Positions 5,120-14,112 of a stretch of 24,152 nt of DNA are shown piece by piece. The DNA is from a virus. The notes beneath the pieces are model-generated. The model searched no databases and had not been told where the DNA came from. It saw nothing but the letters and a program-made list of their open reading frames with translations. Location of the stretch: positions 1 through 24,152 of the IMG/VR virus record IMGVR_UViG_3300009512_000078. The stretch is one strand, 5' to 3'. A program made the position numbers and the translations under genes. How positions within the stretch are numbered: position 1 is the first letter of the stretch; each line of letters starts with the position of its first letter.

Positions 5120-5273
5120 ATCTAGCTTAGCCCACCCAACCAATCCCTTTTATTATATCAGTGATCTCTGTATTGTTTATTAAAAAATGTGATTGTTCGT
5201 TGCACTCACAAACATAAAAAAATATTAATACAATATATCGATATACAGTAGTATCTGTAAGAGGTGATCTGTA
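5120..5273 (+). promoter_or_regulatory. intergenic gap with candidate promoter and strong ribosome binding site
   Basis: This is one of the largest gaps in the window. It holds a small imperfect hairpin at 5188-5210 (TGTGA/TCACA arms), an AT-rich stretch, a TATACAGT element at 5242-5249, and GAGGTGAT at 5261-5268, the strongest Shine-Dalgarno sequence in the window, five bases before the ATG at 5274. The gap probably separates the fibre genes from the glycosyltransferase cassette. The promoter part is inferred from similarity to the other TATA-type elements. Confidence 0.45.
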
Positions 5274-7151
5274 ATGAACAGTCCGTTTGATACTTTGTCT
5301 ATTCACGACAATACTGAAATTATTTTAGTTTCTGACTTATTCTCTTCCGATATTAACGGTGGAGCTGAACTAACTACTGAGGCTATCTTTGAGAATACTG
5401 AATGTGTTGTACAAAGGATCTATTCTAAAGATATCTCTATGAAGCTACTTCAAGAGGGTTATAATAAGTTTTGGATTTTTACTAATTTTGCATCTATTAA
5501 TCTTGAGTTAATCCCTACAATTATTGCCAACTTAAAATATTCAGTTATAGAATATGACTACAAGTTCTGTAAATATAGATCTGTAGAGAAACATAATCAT
5601 TTCGAAGATGCTAAATGTGATTGTGCTAATGAACATCATGGCAAGCTAATTTCTACTTTTTATTATGCTGCAAAATCGTTGTGGTTTATGTCTGAAGGTC
5701 AGAGATCTGTTTATGAGAGAGCTTTTCCTTTTTTGAAAGATGCTAATAGTTTCGTTCTATCTTCAGTTTTCTCTACTTCGTTTTTTGATAAAATAGAAAA
5801 TCTAGTAAAAAATAACAAGAATGATAAGTATATTGTTTTAAACTCTCAAAGTTGGATAAAAGATGCAAATGCTTCAACTGACTGGTGTACAGACAACAAC
5901 AAAGAATACGAACTACTTTCAGGATTATCACATGATGAATTCTTACAAAAGCTCTCCGAGTCAAAAGGAATATCATACTTCCCATCAGGTAATGACACAT
6001 GTCCAAGAATGATCATAGAGGCAAAGTTATTAGGTTGTGACATTCAAACAAATGAAAACGTACAACATGTAAACGAAGAGTGGTTCACTGGTTCAAATGA
6101 TGACACAATAAATTATTTAAAATCAAGACCATCAGTGTTTTGGGACGAAATAAGCAACAACGTAAAGAAACAGACCATATCAGGTTATACAACTACATAC
6201 AACTGTATAGATCAGGAGTACCCATTTGAAGAATCAATATTATCCCTGGCTTCATTCTGTGACCAAATAGTCGTAGTCGATGGTGGTTCCAAAGATGGTA
6301 CACTAGAAAGGCTCCACGAACTAGCAGAGGCCCACGAATCAATAGCAGTGCATGTGGTACAAAGAAACTGGAATGATACTAGATTCGCACTGTATGATGG
6401 TCAACAGAAGGCAGAAGCCCGAAAATTATGCACATCAGATTTCTGCTGGCAACAAGATGTCGATGAGATTGTTCATGAGGACGACGGACAAAAAATAAAA
6501 AATATTGTAGATAACTTTCCAAACACTATGGACTTAATAGCCTTGCCTGTTGTTGAATACTGGGGAGACTACGATAAAGTAAGAGTAGATGTCAACCCTT
6601 GGAAAGCACGACTAAGTAAGAATAAAGACTTTATTACACACGGTATTCCAGCCCATCTTAGGGCTCATGATGAAAACGGAGAACTATTTTCAAAACAAGG
6701 ATCAGATGGCTGTGACTACATTAGAACAGACAATGGAACGCATGTGCCTTTTGGAAACTTTTACAACAAAGACTTGCATACACTAAGAGTTGAAGCCTTA
6801 AACGGTGATACTGAATCACTAACAGCATATCAGGACTCGATTGAAGACATAATTGAAACATATCCCGGCGTATTCCATTATTCATGGTTCAATCTTGAAA
6901 GAAAAATAAAGACGTATAAAAATTATTGGTCTAGACACTGGCAAAGCATGTATAATATAGCTCAAGCGGACACAATTGAGAACAATATGTTCTTTGACAA
7001 GCCGTGGTCTGAAGTTTCTGATGAAGATATCACACTACTCAGTGTAGAATTAAAACAAAAGATGGGCGGTTGGATATTCCACAATAAAATAGATTTCAAC
7101 ACACCTACACCTTCAATAAAAATATGTAAATCACCGTCTTCTATGGTATAA
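5274..7151 (+). CDS. two-domain glycosyltransferase (GT-B-like half fused to GT2 half)
   Basis: 625 residues. The N-terminal half looks GT-B-like: a first Rossmann region starts EIILVSDLFSSDINGGAEL (about 15-33, with the Gly-Gly donor-side loop) and a second starts at DKYIVLNSQSW (184-194); PRMIIEAKLLGCDI resembles the nucleotide-sugar-binding end of GT4 enzymes. From about residue 300 a GT2-type GT-A domain follows, with IVVVDGGSKDGTLE (332-345) for the nucleotide-binding strand and loop, and DVDE (395-398) as the metal-binding DXD motif. The protein should transfer two sugars in sequence or use one half for binding; acceptor unknown. Serine codons switch from mostly TCT (13 TCT, 2 TCA) before residue 200 to mostly TCA (20 TCA, 5 TCT) after, suggesting a chimeric gene. 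Confidence 0.8.
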   Translation: MNSPFDTLSIHDNTEIILVSDLFSSDINGGAELTTEAIFENTECVVQRIYSKDISMKLLQEGYNKFWIFTNFASINLELIPTIIANLKYSVIEYDYKFCKYRSVEKHNHFEDAKCDCANEHHGKLISTFYYAAKSLWFMSEGQRSVYERAFPFLKDANSFVLSSVFSTSFFDKIENLVKNNKNDKYIVLNSQSWIKDANASTDWCTDNNKEYELLSGLSHDEFLQKLSESKGISYFPSGNDTCPRMIIEAKLLGCDIQTNENVQHVNEEWFTGSNDDTINYLKSRPSVFWDEISNNVKKQTISGYTTTYNCIDQEYPFEESILSLASFCDQIVVVDGGSKDGTLERLHELAEAHESIAVHVVQRNWNDTRFALYDGQQKAEARKLCTSDFCWQQDVDEIVHEDDGQKIKNIVDNFPNTMDLIALPVVEYWGDYDKVRVDVNPWKARLSKNKDFITHGIPAHLRAHDENGELFSKQGSDGCDYIRTDNGTHVPFGNFYNKDLHTLRVEALNGDTESLTAYQDSIEDIIETYPGVFHYSWFNLERKIKTYKNYWSRHWQSMYNIAQADTIENNMFFDKPWSEVSDEDITLLSVELKQKMGGWIFHNKIDFNTPTPSIKICKSPSSMV

Positions 7152-7152
7152 T
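7147..7152 (+). promoter_or_regulatory. candidate -10-like element (TATAAT)
   Basis: GGTATAATATT overlaps the stop of the glycosyltransferase gene and lies 25 bases before the ATG at 7178. No -35 box is visible. An AAGGAG ribosome binding site follows at 7163-7168. It would give the nuclease gene its own transcription start. Confidence 0.4.
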
Positions 7153-7177
7153 ATTATTATAAAAGGAGTTTCATCTT

Positions 7178-8026
7178 ATGAGTGAAGAATTATACGTACT
7201 ACCAACTGGAAAATCACATGTCTCGTTCTCTGAAATAAAAGAATGGGCTGAATGTAGTTGGCGGCACAAGCTTGCGAAGATAGATAAAATTGACATGTTT
7301 AAACCGTCACCTTATCTTGGCTTTGGTACTGCAGTCCACGAAGGCTGTGAAAATATGCTTGAAGGTAAAGATCTAAACAAGGACAAATTGCTCAACGACA
7401 TCAGAGAAGACTTCAAAAAGCACGGCTTTGATGATCCTGAATGGGTAGACAAGCAGCCGGGCTGGTACAAGAAATCATCCGATGTCGGTGTAGAAAAATG
7501 GTGCACTTGGGCAGAAAACATGTGGGCTGAGGTTCCCGACTACCTTGATAAAGAGTTCCCAGGTTGGGAAACAGTAAAGGCAGAGGAATATCTCTATGAG
7601 CCTATTGAAGGAAAGCCTGTAAAGTTCAAAGGATTTGTTGATGCTATCATTAAAGTCCCAAAGAAAAGAGGCGAAGGATACGTCTATTGGATTCTTGACT
7701 GGAAAACAGCTGGAGCATATGGGTGGCGCCGGGATAAGAAACAGGACTTCACTCTACAAGCACAGTTGATTCTATACAAGCATTTCTACTCAAAGAAATA
7801 CGATATTGAACTCAAGGACATACGATGTGCATTTATTCTTCTTAAACGAGGCGGAAAGATTGGAAATATTGTTGATATTGTCCCTGTCTCAGTAGGCCCA
7901 AAGACACTAGCAAAAGGCGTGAAGTTAATGAATAACATGATCTCATCGGTCATGCGAGAGTTTGCAATGAAAAATAGAAACTCATGTCAATTCTGTCCAT
8001 ATAAGGACACACCACACTGTACTTAA
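7178..8026 (+). CDS. PD-(D/E)XK nuclease with Fe-S cluster cysteines (Cas4/AddB-like)
   Basis: 282 residues. The order of conserved features fits the RecB/Cas4-type PD-(D/E)XK superfamily: His54 in GTAVHEG, Asp155 in FKGFVDAI, Asp174 and Lys176 in YWILDWKTAG as the catalytic D...DxK, and a Q-x-Q-x3-Y motif (Gln194, Gln196, Tyr200) in helix LQAQLILYKHF. One cysteine near the N-terminus (Cys26, ECSWRHK) and three at the C-terminus (Cys270, Cys273, Cys281; CQFCPYKDTPHC) match the 4Fe-4S arrangement of Cas4, AddB and Dna2. Expected role is metal-dependent cutting of single-stranded or end-processed DNA in phage recombination, replication or packaging, or in attack on other DNA. No helicase or Cas1 is nearby; the neighbours are glycosyltransferases. 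All catalytic residues seem present. Confidence 0.88.
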   Translation: MSEELYVLPTGKSHVSFSEIKEWAECSWRHKLAKIDKIDMFKPSPYLGFGTAVHEGCENMLEGKDLNKDKLLNDIREDFKKHGFDDPEWVDKQPGWYKKSSDVGVEKWCTWAENMWAEVPDYLDKEFPGWETVKAEEYLYEPIEGKPVKFKGFVDAIIKVPKKRGEGYVYWILDWKTAGAYGWRRDKKQDFTLQAQLILYKHFYSKKYDIELKDIRCAFILLKRGGKIGNIVDIVPVSVGPKTLAKGVKLMNNMISSVMREFAMKNRNSCQFCPYKDTPHCT

Positions 8027-8055
8027 AAATTATTTTAAATTTTTTTTATTTTTGA

Positions 8056-8061
8056 TATAAT
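8056..8061 (+). promoter_or_regulatory. candidate -10-like element (TTTTGATATAAT)
   Basis: TATAAT with the left flank TTTTGA, 26 bases before the GTG at 8088. The same 12-base string TTTTGATATAAT recurs at 14012-14023 before the gp25-like gene, and both lie in intergenic gaps. No -35 box is visible. The repeated longer match makes this the best-supported promoter pair in the window. Confidence 0.55.
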
Positions 8062-8087
8062 GTTTAAGTGATAGGATAATATAACAA

Positions 8088-9329
8088 GTGCAAAAAAAGA
8101 AAAAAATATTAGTTTTATCTGATCATGCGATGTCTACATCGGGTGTAGGAACTCAAACGCGTCATCTCATTAATGGGTTGATAAAGAAAAATGAATGGAC
8201 TTTCAGACAGTTCGGTGCTGCAATGAAGCATTCTGACTACAAGACAGTTCATATTAATGACGACTTTGTAATCAAGCCAATAGATGGCTTTGGCAACAGA
8301 GACCTCATACGACTTACTCTTGCTACAGAGAAGCCTGATCTTATTTTTATTTTTACTGACCCACGATTCTTTATATGGCTCTGGGAGATGGAAGATGAAA
8401 TACATCAAGTTTGTCCAGTTGCGTACTGGCATGTCTGGGACAACGAGCCCTTTCCAAAGTTCAATGAAAAACTATATGAATCAACTGATACAGTAAATTG
8501 TCATTCATACTTGACATACAAAATGCTATCAGAGAACATGCCAGACAAACCAAGAGTCAGCTTCATACCACATGCAGTCCCAGAAGACATATTCTTTAGA
8601 CTTCCAGATAGCGAAAGAAAAAAATATAAACAAAAAATATTAGGCGCAGGAAAAGAAGATCACTTTGTTGCAATCTGGAATAATAGAAACGCTAGACGGA
8701 AACGTCCTGGTGATTTGTTGTTCGCGTGGCAGAAGTTCTTAGAAAAAATAGAAAACAAAGATGCTATTTTAATAATGCACACAGACCCACATGACAAAGA
8801 GGGTTCAAATTTATTCATATTGGCAGAAGAACTAGGAATAAAAGACAGTGTATTCTTCTCTAGAGAGAGACTAGAGTTTGACAAGATAAACATTCTGTAT
8901 AATGTATCCGATGTGTGTGTAAACATAAGTTATTCTGAAGGATTCGGGCTTTCAACATTAGAAGCAATGCAAACTGGGATACCGATAATTGCAGTAAAAA
9001 CAGGTGGTCTAACACGCCAGATCATTGATCATAGAGATGGTTCACTGAACGGAGTCGCCCTAGACGTCACAATGAAAACACTCGCAGGCAGCCAGCAGGT
9101 ACCATACATTTACGAAGACTACGCATCAGTTGATGATATAGCGTCTGCTCTTCATGAGGTATATTCATATGACACACAAACAAAAAATAAAATGTCAAAG
9201 AAAGTAATGGAATATGTCAAATCAGAATTTAATCTACAAACAACTGTTGATCTTTGGCATGACTCATTAAAAGACACTATCGACAACTGGAAAAACGACT
9301 ATAAACCATGGAATATTACAACGCTATGA
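8088..9329 (+). CDS. GT-B glycosyltransferase (GT4-like)
   Basis: 413 residues from a GTG start; AGGATAA at 8073-8079 is a plausible ribosome binding site. The N-terminus KKILVLSDHAMSTSGVGTQT gives the first Rossmann strand and the Gly-rich loop of GT-B enzymes. In the C-terminal half, HFVAIWNNRNARRKRPGDL begins the second Rossmann domain, and SYSEGFGLSTLEAMQTGIPI holds the E-x7-E motif that binds the nucleotide sugar in GT4 enzymes, followed by AVKTGGLTRQII. The protein has normal family length and looks intact. It is the first of a tandem pair, and its stop overlaps the start of the next gene (ATGA). Substrate is unknown; phage sugar-modified DNA, virion proteins or host surface polysaccharide are all possible. 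Confidence 0.85.
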   Translation: MQKKKKILVLSDHAMSTSGVGTQTRHLINGLIKKNEWTFRQFGAAMKHSDYKTVHINDDFVIKPIDGFGNRDLIRLTLATEKPDLIFIFTDPRFFIWLWEMEDEIHQVCPVAYWHVWDNEPFPKFNEKLYESTDTVNCHSYLTYKMLSENMPDKPRVSFIPHAVPEDIFFRLPDSERKKYKQKILGAGKEDHFVAIWNNRNARRKRPGDLLFAWQKFLEKIENKDAILIMHTDPHDKEGSNLFILAEELGIKDSVFFSRERLEFDKINILYNVSDVCVNISYSEGFGLSTLEAMQTGIPIIAVKTGGLTRQIIDHRDGSLNGVALDVTMKTLAGSQQVPYIYEDYASVDDIASALHEVYSYDTQTKNKMSKKVMEYVKSEFNLQTTVDLWHDSLKDTIDNWKNDYKPWNITTL

Positions 9330-10501
9330 ATAGAAAAAATGTAGTAATTAGAGCACCACTTCTCAGTCAGTCAGGATATGGAGTGCATTCCAGACAAATA
9401 GTAAAGTATCTACTTAATAGATCAGACTTTGTAACAACGTCACAAATTGTCAACTGGGGAAACACTCCATGGATACTAAATCATGATGCAGAAGACGGTC
9501 TTATAGGGAGAATACTCGAATCGTCTATAACAAATAGGGATAATTTCGACATATCATTCCAGGTACAACTACCAAATGAATGGGATACATCTTTGGCAAA
9601 ATTCAATGTAGGCGTCACAGCACTAGTCGAGACAGACAAGTGCAACCCAGCGTGGATAGAAAAAATAAACAAAATGGACCTTGTTGTCGTCCCATCACAA
9701 TTTGTCAAGAAGACAATCTATGACACAGGCGTTGAAGTAACTACAAAAGTAGTAGTTGTAGGTGAGTCATATCATGAGTCAATTGATAAAGAAATAATAG
9801 ACATTGATTTGAATATTGATACTAAGTTTAATTTCTTGGTGTTCGGGCAGTTTACGGGTATGACGCCTACAACTGATAGAAAGAATCTTTTTAATACTGT
9901 GAAATGGCTTTGTGAAGAATTTAAAGACAACAAAGATGTTGGAATAGTTCTTAAGACGAACTCAAGCCGTTCAACAAAAATCGATAAAGGAATAACCACA
10001 AGCCTCGTAGGTCGATTAATAAGTGAAGTCAGACATGGACAGTACCCAAAGGTTCATCTATTGCATGGAAATATGCTTCCTGAAGAGGTTGCCTCACTTT
10101 ACAAACATAAAAACATAAATGCACTAATCTCAGCGACAAGAGGTGAAGGGTTTGGATTACCACTACTTGAGGCTGCATCATCTGCATTACCAGTAATCGC
10201 AACGAACTGGTCAGGACATTTAGACTTTCTTAATCTCGGTTCATTCATCAAATTAGATTATGAATTAAAAGAAGTAGATAAATCAAAAATCGACAACAAT
10301 ATTTTTGTCCCAGGATTAAAGTGGGCAGAGGTAAATGAAAATGATTTTAAAAAGAAAGCAAAAGATTTTTATAAAAATAGAAAAGGAATTCAATCAAAAT
10401 CAAACAAATTAGCTGAAAAAATCAAACAAAACTACTCATTTGACGCCATTTCAGAACAATATAACGTTTTAATACAAAAAAATATTTTACAAAATGATTA
10501 A
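9326..10501 (+). CDS. GT-B glycosyltransferase (GT4-like), second of a tandem pair
   Basis: 391 residues from ATG 9326, which overlaps the previous stop as ATGA; an in-frame ATG at 9308 would add six residues, but the usual N-terminus begins NVVIRAPLLSQSGYGVHS. That strand and Gly-rich loop plus EGFGLPLLEAASSALPVIA (E-x7-E motif near residue 285) mark a GT4-type GT-B fold. The second Rossmann domain starts at KFNFLVFGQFTG and has the DRKNLFNTVKWL helix. Coupling to the preceding gene suggests the two act in one pathway. Bases about 9790-9960, at the start of the second domain, use more T- and G-ending codons than the flanks. Confidence 0.85.
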   Translation: MNRKNVVIRAPLLSQSGYGVHSRQIVKYLLNRSDFVTTSQIVNWGNTPWILNHDAEDGLIGRILESSITNRDNFDISFQVQLPNEWDTSLAKFNVGVTALVETDKCNPAWIEKINKMDLVVVPSQFVKKTIYDTGVEVTTKVVVVGESYHESIDKEIIDIDLNIDTKFNFLVFGQFTGMTPTTDRKNLFNTVKWLCEEFKDNKDVGIVLKTNSSRSTKIDKGITTSLVGRLISEVRHGQYPKVHLLHGNMLPEEVASLYKHKNINALISATRGEGFGLPLLEAASSALPVIATNWSGHLDFLNLGSFIKLDYELKEVDKSKIDNNIFVPGLKWAEVNENDFKKKAKDFYKNRKGIQSKSNKLAEKIKQNYSFDAISEQYNVLIQKNILQND

Positions 10502-10826
10502 TTTTATTTCACATTATCACTTATATATTATAGGATTCCTTATATTATTTAGTATTTTGTCTGCTTATTTTACAATTAAATTTGCCATCTTAATACTAAA
10601 AACAGAAGAAAAATTAACTAACATCTTAGATGCGATCGACGAAGAGTATATGGAAATATCAAAAGTTCTTGAAACACCAATATTTTTCGATAGTCAAGAA
10701 GTAAAACAAGTAATGTCAAGTATTAATAATGTTAGAAATACATTTTTAAATATATCTGCATACATCATTGAAGATTACAAAGACTCAGATGATCAAACTA
10801 ATGAAGAAAATCAGGCAGATAATTGA
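10494..10826 (+). CDS. small membrane protein, unknown function
   Basis: 110 residues. Residues about 9-36 (IIGFLILFSILSAYFTIKF and onwards) form one strong transmembrane helix, and the rest is a charged, probably helical cytoplasmic tail ending in an acidic stretch (EDYKDSDDQTNEENQADN). It overlaps the preceding glycosyltransferase by 8 bases and has no clear Shine-Dalgarno sequence, so it may be read by translational coupling. Its stop TGA overlaps the TTG start proposed for the sigma factor. I do not recognise the family. Confidence 0.65.
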   Translation: MINFISHYHLYIIGFLILFSILSAYFTIKFAILILKTEEKLTNILDAIDEEYMEISKVLETPIFFDSQEVKQVMSSINNVRNTFLNISAYIIEDYKDSDDQTNEENQADN

Positions 10827-11560
10827 TAATAAGACGAACAACAAGACGTAGAGGTAAAAAAAAGGGAACTAAAATGTATTTCGGGCGTCCTGCCCATGAT
10901 GCAATTTGCGAATTTCAAAAAGTTATTACAGAAGAAGAAAAACACGAAATCTATGTAACAAGAATAAAGCAACCATTTAATAAATTAGTTGAAAATCTTA
11001 TTTTTATACACGGGTTTAGATCATTAACTGGGTCTTACGAAGATCTAAAAAATGATTGTGTAACATTCTTGTATGAAACGCTTTACAAATTTGACCCATC
11101 AAAGGGATCAAAGGCTTTCTCGTATTTCAATGTCGTCGCCAAAAATTGGTTGATAATACAGTCAAAAAAGAATACAAGAGATATGAAACGATCAGTTTCA
11201 ATAGATGACACGGAGATTATGAGTCATAGGGACAAAGTTGCAATTGAAACGCACTCTATAGCTAAATCACAAGATGCTCGTCTAATAAGAGAAAACGCCA
11301 TACAGAATCTCTTCTCACTCTTGGAAGAAATAAAGAGTAGAGTCGATGGCACTAACGAAATCTCGTGTATTGATTCAATAATTACGCTTTTTTCAAGTAT
11401 AGATGAACTAGAGTTTCTAAATAAGCGTGCAGTCTTTGTATACCTTAGAGACATTTCAGGTTTAAATCCAAAACAATTGTCTGTTTCAATGTCTTCTATA
11501 CGAAAACATTATAGATCAATCAAAAAAGACGACAAGTTCGATATATTTTTTGGAGAATAA
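10823..11560 (+). CDS. 55: late-transcription sigma factor, gp55-like
   Basis: 245 residues if the TTG at 10823 is used. The stretch MYFGRPAHDAI, the KLVENLIFIHGF helix, then a segment with YEDLKNDCVTFLYETL and the strong signature KFDPSKGSKAFSYFNVVAKN are those of the T4 gp55 family of marine T4-like phages, which direct host RNA polymerase to late promoters. The basic N-terminus (RRTTRRRGKKKG) precedes MYFG. An ATG at 10874 with AAGGGA at 10862-10867 is a better start by ribosome binding site and would leave 228 residues; homologues often keep a basic segment, so both are possible. The C-terminus DKFDIFFGE is hydrophobic and acidic, like the sliding-clamp-binding tails of gp55 and gp33. It sits just ahead of the structural genes it should switch on. 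Confidence 0.88.
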   Translation: MIIRRTTRRRGKKKGTKMYFGRPAHDAICEFQKVITEEEKHEIYVTRIKQPFNKLVENLIFIHGFRSLTGSYEDLKNDCVTFLYETLYKFDPSKGSKAFSYFNVVAKNWLIIQSKKNTRDMKRSVSIDDTEIMSHRDKVAIETHSIAKSQDARLIRENAIQNLFSLLEEIKSRVDGTNEISCIDSIITLFSSIDELEFLNKRAVFVYLRDISGLNPKQLSVSMSSIRKHYRSIKKDDKFDIFFGE

Positions 11561-11929
11561 ATGACTACAAAAGAAAAAATAAACAAAGAACTCACTAAAA
11601 TAACAGACAAAGATAATAAAGTAAAACAATTTTCTGATCTGTTAAATTCAATCGAGTCACTTGAAGACAAAAGAAAGTTTTTGTGGAAAGAAATCTATGA
11701 AAACGCTGTAAAAGACAGAGAATGTGCATCGTTCCTTTTTGCCGATTTATTCAAAGATCTATCGGGATCTGCTCAACATGCAGTAACAGGAGCAATAGCT
11801 TCAAAATACCTAGAAAGAATGAGTAAATCAAACGATCAAATACTAAAGCTTGCAGAATTAATAACAAAGGCAGAAGAAGATAATTCTAAATTCGACCCAG
11901 AAGATATTTATTCTACAATAATGGAATAA
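11561..11929 (+). CDS. small helical protein, possible late-transcription co-factor
   Basis: 122 residues, starting one base after the stop of the sigma factor with GGAG at 11552-11555. The whole protein looks alpha-helical (repeated E/K-rich heptad-like stretches such as LNSIESLEDKRKFLWKEI). The end, KFDPEDIYSTIME, again mixes acidic and hydrophobic residues. In T4, gp33 is a small helical partner of gp55 that bridges RNA polymerase and the sliding clamp; placement and character fit, but I see no diagnostic motif, so this is a guess. Otherwise unknown. Confidence 0.6.
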   Translation: MTTKEKINKELTKITDKDNKVKQFSDLLNSIESLEDKRKFLWKEIYENAVKDRECASFLFADLFKDLSGSAQHAVTGAIASKYLERMSKSNDQILKLAELITKAEEDNSKFDPEDIYSTIME

Positions 11930-14023: not shown

Positions 14024-14112
14024 TAGTTATAGATTACGCAAAACTAAATACATGATAAATTAAATAAACACAATATTTTTTATTCATTATATTTATTAAC
14101 AAGGAAGCACAA

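Follow-up and report, generated by a model that had tools for sequence, protein, structure and literature searches.

A nuclease-glycosyltransferase unit with conserved order upstream of the late sigma factor gene in a lineage of marine tailed phages, and its putative role in glycan assembly

Glycosyltransferase genes and a nuclease gene standing in one block of a phage genome raise the question of whether they form an optional cassette or a fixed unit, and of which molecule receives the sugars. The window, i.e. the whole 24-kb virus record that was analysed, carries such a block, with fibre-like genes on one side and TM110 and SIG, which are coupled, on the other (Table 1). A sequence-only reading of the window had recognized three glycosyltransferase (GT) genes and an Fe-S nuclease gene between fibre genes and a late sigma factor gene, and the gene calls, Pfam and phrog_234 agree with this layout. 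The same reading described the neighbouring proteins as full of sugar-binding domains, which was not borne out: Pfam identified PKD domains only, in g1, and these are no proof of sugar binding. The ATG at 9326, overlapping the GT2 stop codon (ATGA), is a likelier start of GT3 than the called one at 9308. GT3, TM110 and SIG are coupled (median gaps of +1, −4 and −4), and the Pfam and PHROG scans gave no family match for TM110. An assignment of the host through MAG-binned contigs was not trusted.

Table 1. Coordinates of predicted genes and candidate control elements in the window
Feature	Position	Strand	Description
Conserved leader upstream of the operon	5127..5236	+	About 110 bp; promoter candidate CTCACA (5205)-N18-TACAAT (ends 5234)
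GT1	5274..7151	+	625 aa; GT-B-like N-terminal half (about residues 12-297) fused to GT-A C-terminal half; the one gene of the block that varies
Extended −10 element TGGTATAAT before NUC	7144..7152	+	Overlaps GT1 stop codon
NUC	7178..8026	+	282 aa; predicted Fe-S PD-(D/E)XK nuclease, RecB/AddB/Cas4 group; Pfam, PHROG, motif residues, predicted fold
Sigma-70-type promoter candidate before GT2	8034..8061	+	TTTAAA-N16-TATAAT; class conserved in relatives
GT2	8088..9329	+	413 aa; predicted GT-B (GT4-type) glycosyltransferase, E284-x7-E292
GT3	9308..10501	+	397 aa; predicted GT-B (GT4-type) glycosyltransferase, E280-x7-E288
TM110	10494..10826	+	Small protein, hydrophobic at the N-terminus; gene coupled to both GT3 and SIG; position kept in relatives
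SIG	10823..11560	+	Late sigma factor resembling T4 gp55 (phrog_234); closes the putative pre-late run
ATATTTA element	11904..11910	+	29 bases before g427
ATATTTA element	14089..14095	+	24 bases before baseplate gene g156

The features of GT2 and GT3 are those expected of GT-B enzymes of the GT4 type. Both contain a Glycos_transf_1 domain (PF00534; 2.7e-16 and 6.6e-9, respectively, in Pfam), their E-x7-E glutamate pairs are conserved across relatives, and the two proteins are homologous to each other. Chlorovirus B736L (PDB 3oy2) was the best solved sequence match for each of them. The C-terminal half of GT1 belongs to GT-A families (PF13704, PF00535), and its first ~300 residues are GT-B-like, with a fold match to SenB (TMt 0.51). 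Because of this match, and because the same domain recurs fused to GT3 in locus L058, the earlier count of four sugar-transfer domains holds, GT1 contributing one in each half. Only GT-A and GT4-type families were detected among the three glycosyltransferases by Pfam and PHROG, and none was of the AGT or BGT type. The GT2 homologue of Microcystis phage Mel-JY01 is spread over two overlapping open frames (L157, 13418-14930), which may reflect a frameshift or a sequencing error.

The view of the block as an optional cassette was examined in loci sampled in three ways, through GT2, through SIG and through NUC. Counted on the best-scoring loci of each scan, some of them near-duplicates, so that the fractions hold for the lineage rather than for phages at large, the SIG sample with enough upstream sequence contained GT3 in 67/67 loci, GT2 in 56/56 and an upstream NUC in 43/43; the order GT2-GT3-(TM)-SIG was kept in 56/56. 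When the sampling started from NUC, both GT2 and GT3 were located downstream in 75 of 78 loci, with GT2 at most 1.5 kb away in 73. Where NUC is not adjacent, its only copy lies several to ~13 kb upstream, and sugar genes stand in the interval. The identity distances of GT2, GT3 and NUC track those of SIG (Spearman 0.61-0.73), as would be expected for vertical inheritance. The order fixed in relatives rules out an optional cassette for NUC-GT2-GT3, and GT1 alone comes and goes. NUC-GT2-GT3 is a core unit of a marine tailed phage lineage, usually located beside variable sugar-making genes. Searches beyond this lineage, with cultured phages excluded from the profiles, found NUC together with both glycosyltransferases in Flavobacterium phage immuto, whose gene order differs from that of the window's lineage, and in Mel-JY01, where one gene separates NUC and GT2. 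In the 484-kb phage LR756508, only GT2 lies near NUC, and Rhodothermus phage RM378 carries both glycosyltransferases of the pair but lacks NUC.

Most members of the window's own clade have GT1, which is missing from the sister contig L004; there, the shared leader is followed directly by NUC. The leader is near-identical before GT1 in L002, L003, L005 and L006. Across six contigs, with or without GT1, its conservation (8550-8790 in L004) is far above that of the flanking fibre gene. The reading of it as a structured RNA was rejected (no Rfam match and a fold z of only −1.58), as was that of a minus-strand gene: a short conserved peptide-like reading exists, but 1-base indels between relatives break the frame. 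One close relative carries a PF10364-like gene ("putative capsular polysaccharide synthesis protein") between GT1 and NUC (L003, 3008-3769).

For the sugar-making genes, the 9 kb upstream of GT2 were inspected in near relatives; 56 of these, after deduplication, offered at least 5.5 kb of sequence there. Nucleotide-sugar or related genes were found in 53 of the 56, including UDP-sugar dehydrogenase (42), NeuB-CMP transferase (15) and, in many, epimerase or GDP-mannose dehydratase; carbamoyltransferase, UDP-GlcNAc 2-epimerase and PEP mutase occur in a few, and a sulfotransferase in L065. Such genes are lacking in three: L002 and L004, both closely related to the window, and L076, a distant relative. 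No nucleotide-sugar set adjoins the block in the window's own clade, and PF00984 was absent from five close contigs, all of them fragments. Sugar-pathway genes follow the GT pair in immuto, and further glycosyltransferases occupy this place in Mel-JY01. A PEP mutase-CTP transferase fusion in the sugar island of L012 (415-1728) suggests phosphonate decoration. The glycan function that had been proposed for the block is supported by the GT families, their intact motifs and these adjoining genes of relatives.

The time at which the block is expressed may be approached through its promoters. TATA-type elements had been noted before the first three genes. In the window alone, such signals are at the level of chance, with 26 sigma-70-like sites against 26.8 in shuffles, and TATAAT (45 against 34.6 expected) is enriched weakly at best. 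Among relatives, TATAAT precedes NUC in 24/56 (expected 8.3) and bipartite sites in 35/56 (expected 8.7), and TTTACT-N15-18-minus-10 precedes GT2 in 15/63 (expected 0.09). The NUC TATAAT stands only 12 bases ahead of the called start in many relatives, so that in these one of the two, start codon or element, is in doubt. GT1 has no TATAAT ahead but lies behind the leader with its promoter candidate; the observation stands for NUC and GT2, on the strength of relatives. The further claim of promoters separate from those of the structural genes is supported: NUC and GT2 have host-type elements, whereas structural genes have ATATTTA, which in the window lies 24-29 bases ahead of g0, the second fibre gene, g427 and the baseplate gene. 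ATATTTA was found in relatives before g156 in 38/81 (expected 4.2), before g427 in 14/50 (expected 1.4) and before NUC plus GT2 in 1/119; the Fisher value of 4e-17 for g156 against NUC plus GT2 is not a pre-planned p-value, because the motifs were discovered in the same sequences. The T4 late motif TATAAATA was not enriched before core genes, except for 6/79 at GT2. ATATTTA, found in its stead, may be regarded as a putative late promoter. Since host-type promoters precede NUC and GT2, ATATTTA precedes structural genes, and GT3, TM110 and SIG are coupled, the block reads as a pre-late operon that would deliver the late sigma factor. A repeated TATATTTAGGTATCAATAATTAAAA stands before many small genes in immuto (L156) and is probably the promoter of that phage; it resembles ATATTTA of the window's lineage, though the genes concerned are not structural.

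The nuclease was characterized by its motifs and predicted fold. NUC matches PDDEXK_1 (5e-17, Pfam), and its catalytic residues H54, D155, D174-x-K176, Q196 and Y200 are invariant or nearly so in 45-47 relatives. Of its Fe-S-type cysteines, one N-terminal and three C-terminal, C26, C270 and C273 are invariant and C281 is conserved in at least 90%. These residues and cysteines are those of an Fe-S PD-(D/E)XK nuclease with a predicted cluster. The predicted fold (pLDDT 93.9) is near AdnA/Dna2/AddB/Cas4; against the PDB, the single sequence gave chance-level matches only, and the profile gave weak matches to MGME1 and helicase-nuclease. The best reading of NUC is an AdnA/AddB/Cas4-class exonuclease that processes DNA ends, probably in phage recombination or replication. 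A scheme in which the phage modifies its own DNA and cuts foreign DNA, raised from the window alone, found no support, because NUC groups with these end-processing exonucleases and not with restriction enzymes. NUC and the glycosyltransferases may even be functionally unrelated, their linkage being only an old, frozen gene order, and the chances of this are only a little short of even. The separate promoter class of NUC, the sugar genes between NUC and GT2 in some relatives, and RM378, which keeps the GT pair without NUC, are consistent with such independence, whereas the pairing of NUC with GT2 persists while the surrounding genes change completely between lineages.

The acceptor of the glycan was considered on the basis of 32 scanned records: three are cultured phages, and the other 29 are virus contigs, several of which measure 235-255 kb. 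The initiating transferase of lipid-linked O-antigen or capsule (PF02397) and the Wzx flippase (PF01943) were each found in 0/32, no Wzy/ligase (PF04932) was above the cut-off in these records, and the GtrA flippase (PF04138), by which gtrABC serotype conversion is recognized, was also found in 0/32; positive controls worked in all these scans. The absence of carrier, flippase, polymerase/ligase and GtrA genes weakens the case for a lipid-linked glycan exported by the phage alone and makes a cytoplasmic acceptor probable. A search for genes of the hydroxymethyl-cytosine type had also been suggested. The PF00303 family occurs in 4/32 records, of which immuto and G003 have ordinary thymidylate synthases (TS); in the divergent TS-like proteins of G001 and G002, Asp takes the place of the Asn, as it does in dCMP hydroxymethylases. 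Asp at this position marks cytosine specificity in TS-like proteins. No PF00303 member was found in the complete Mel-JY01 and RM378, both of which keep GT genes, or in the large G004 and G005. The pyrimidine hydroxymethylase that characterizes T4-type DNA glycosylation thus has candidate counterparts in 2/32 records only, the window's genome being a fragment. In G001, the dCMP-hydroxymethylase-like gene is directly followed by a UDP-galactopyranose-mutase-like gene (L162, 1468-3611; phrog_9677, the mutase name by sequence reading); the pair is located ~110 kb from the GT block and may form a separate DNA-sugar pathway.

Among the acceptors offered by the sequence-only reading, the host surface is disfavoured by the lack of export genes and DNA by the rarity of hydroxymethylase-like genes, and virion proteins stay the most attractive. 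What is left after this elimination, a virion protein, is the most likely acceptor, and the glycosylation known from mycobacteriophages and chloroviruses offers an analogy. As a whole, the explanation we prefer is put forward tentatively, with slightly less than even confidence: a pre-late operon whose products build a cytoplasmic glycan on an acceptor that is not a lipid but most likely a protein of the virion, with NUC as an end-processing exonuclease. Host sigma-70-type promoters before NUC and GT2 would drive a coupled run whose last gene is that of the late sigma factor. The inner part of the glycan, invariant and directed by the phage, would be put together in the cytoplasm by GT2 and GT3; in most relatives, the neighbouring variable nucleotide-sugar and tailoring enzymes would supply unusual activated sugars. 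The sugars would be placed on a tail fibre or capsid protein before assembly, and NUC would process DNA ends, probably for recombination or replication. Several observations count against the virion as acceptor. Fibre-like proteins vary freely beside fixed glycosyltransferases, expression before the late phase would fit a DNA or host-surface target no less well, and G001 and G002 have hydroxymethylase-like genes. Moreover, the tight NUC-GT2 linkage suggests a shared function beyond the reach of this explanation, and the host's own LPS core could be a lipid acceptor requiring no phage export genes.

Glycosylation by GT2 and GT3 of a hydroxylated base of phage DNA, with NUC degrading unmodified host DNA or processing modified ends, is unlikely, roughly a one-in-several prospect. 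It would account for a DNA nuclease locked to a GT pair in several deep lineages and for the Asp-bearing TS-like proteins of G001 and G002, and phages with sugar-modified bases can encode sugar-activating enzymes. Yet two of the four PF00303 proteins are ordinary thymidylate synthases, Mel-JY01, RM378 and the full-size G004 and G005 have none, no hydroxymethylase-like gene was seen near the glycosyltransferases, and the structural class of NUC is not that of restriction enzymes. GT2 is also acidic (median pI 5.5) and NUC basic (8.8), an uncalibrated and weak argument. DNA glycosylation is possible in a few of these phages and, because hydroxymethylase-like genes are so rare, unlikely as what GT2-GT3 do in general, unless the base can be hydroxylated in some other way. 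Slightly less probable still is a change of the host surface, in which the glycosyltransferases would remodel the LPS or capsule of the infected host and keep other phages from superinfecting it. The island enzymes are of the O-antigen type, pre-late expression fits, and the glycosyltransferases of pelagimyophages have been so interpreted (PMC7029224); however, no initiating phosphoglycosyltransferase, flippase, ligase or GtrA was found in the 32 records, so this route must use host carriers and exporters. That NUC-GT2-GT3 is one machine in many divergent aquatic phages, placing a glycan on phage DNA or a DNA-bound protein without TS-like hydroxymethylases and with NUC acting in concert, is improbable.

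Summarizing, a three-gene unit is conserved across deeply divergent aquatic phages and is usually docked to a changeable sugar-synthesis island that lacks export genes and whose predicted chemistry includes sialic-acid-type, carbamoyl, sulfate and phosphonate groups. Phage-built glycans on virions or DNA thereby become directly testable in immuto, which is cultured on Flavobacterium sp. LMO8, and the promoter classes indicate, for a lineage not yet cultured, where pre-late genes would give way to late ones. Within the accessible portions of the literature on related systems, neither the fixed NUC-GT2-GT3 unit, nor its docking with an export-less sugar island, nor the promoter split was found. 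T4-type DNA glucosylation (AGT/BGT with dCMP hydroxymethylase) likewise combines phage glycosyltransferases with DNA enzymes expressed before late genes; here, the GT families are different, the hydroxymethylase is mostly absent and the nuclease is of another class. NUC shares its predicted fold, catalytic residues and four cysteines with Fe-S nucleases of the AddB/AdnA/Cas4/Dna2 type, but stands alone beside glycosyltransferases, with no helicase or Cas1/Cas2 partner. Chloroviruses glycosylate their own capsid with virus-encoded glycosyltransferases and, like the relatives' loci, have nucleotide-sugar enzymes (B736L; PMC4691112). They are, however, eukaryotic viruses, and the homology is remote and limited to the GT domain. 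To our knowledge, no nuclease linkage accompanies chlorovirus glycosylation. Moraphages are large phages of aquatic origin whose core genome includes four GT groups, of a role left open in the accessible part of their description; by that description they are alike in core glycosyltransferases, gp25/gp6 baseplate genes, a sigma factor and aquatic origin; the nuclease linkage, sugar island and promoter split are described here and not in that part (PMC12619734). In mycobacteriophages, phage glycosyltransferases are reported to modify capsid and tail-tube protein without an export system (Freeman et al. 2023, cited in PMC12619734, PMC11256854), as may be the case here, where a two-GT core is locked to a nuclease and a late sigma factor, usually beside a nucleotide-sugar island. 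Pelagimyophages are marine myophages with LPS-type genes in a host-recognition cluster, where glycosyltransferases and UDP-glucose dehydrogenase lie near tail-fibre genes (PMC7029224); those genes are variable, whereas NUC-GT2-GT3 stays fixed in the lineage studied here, variation being confined to the island.
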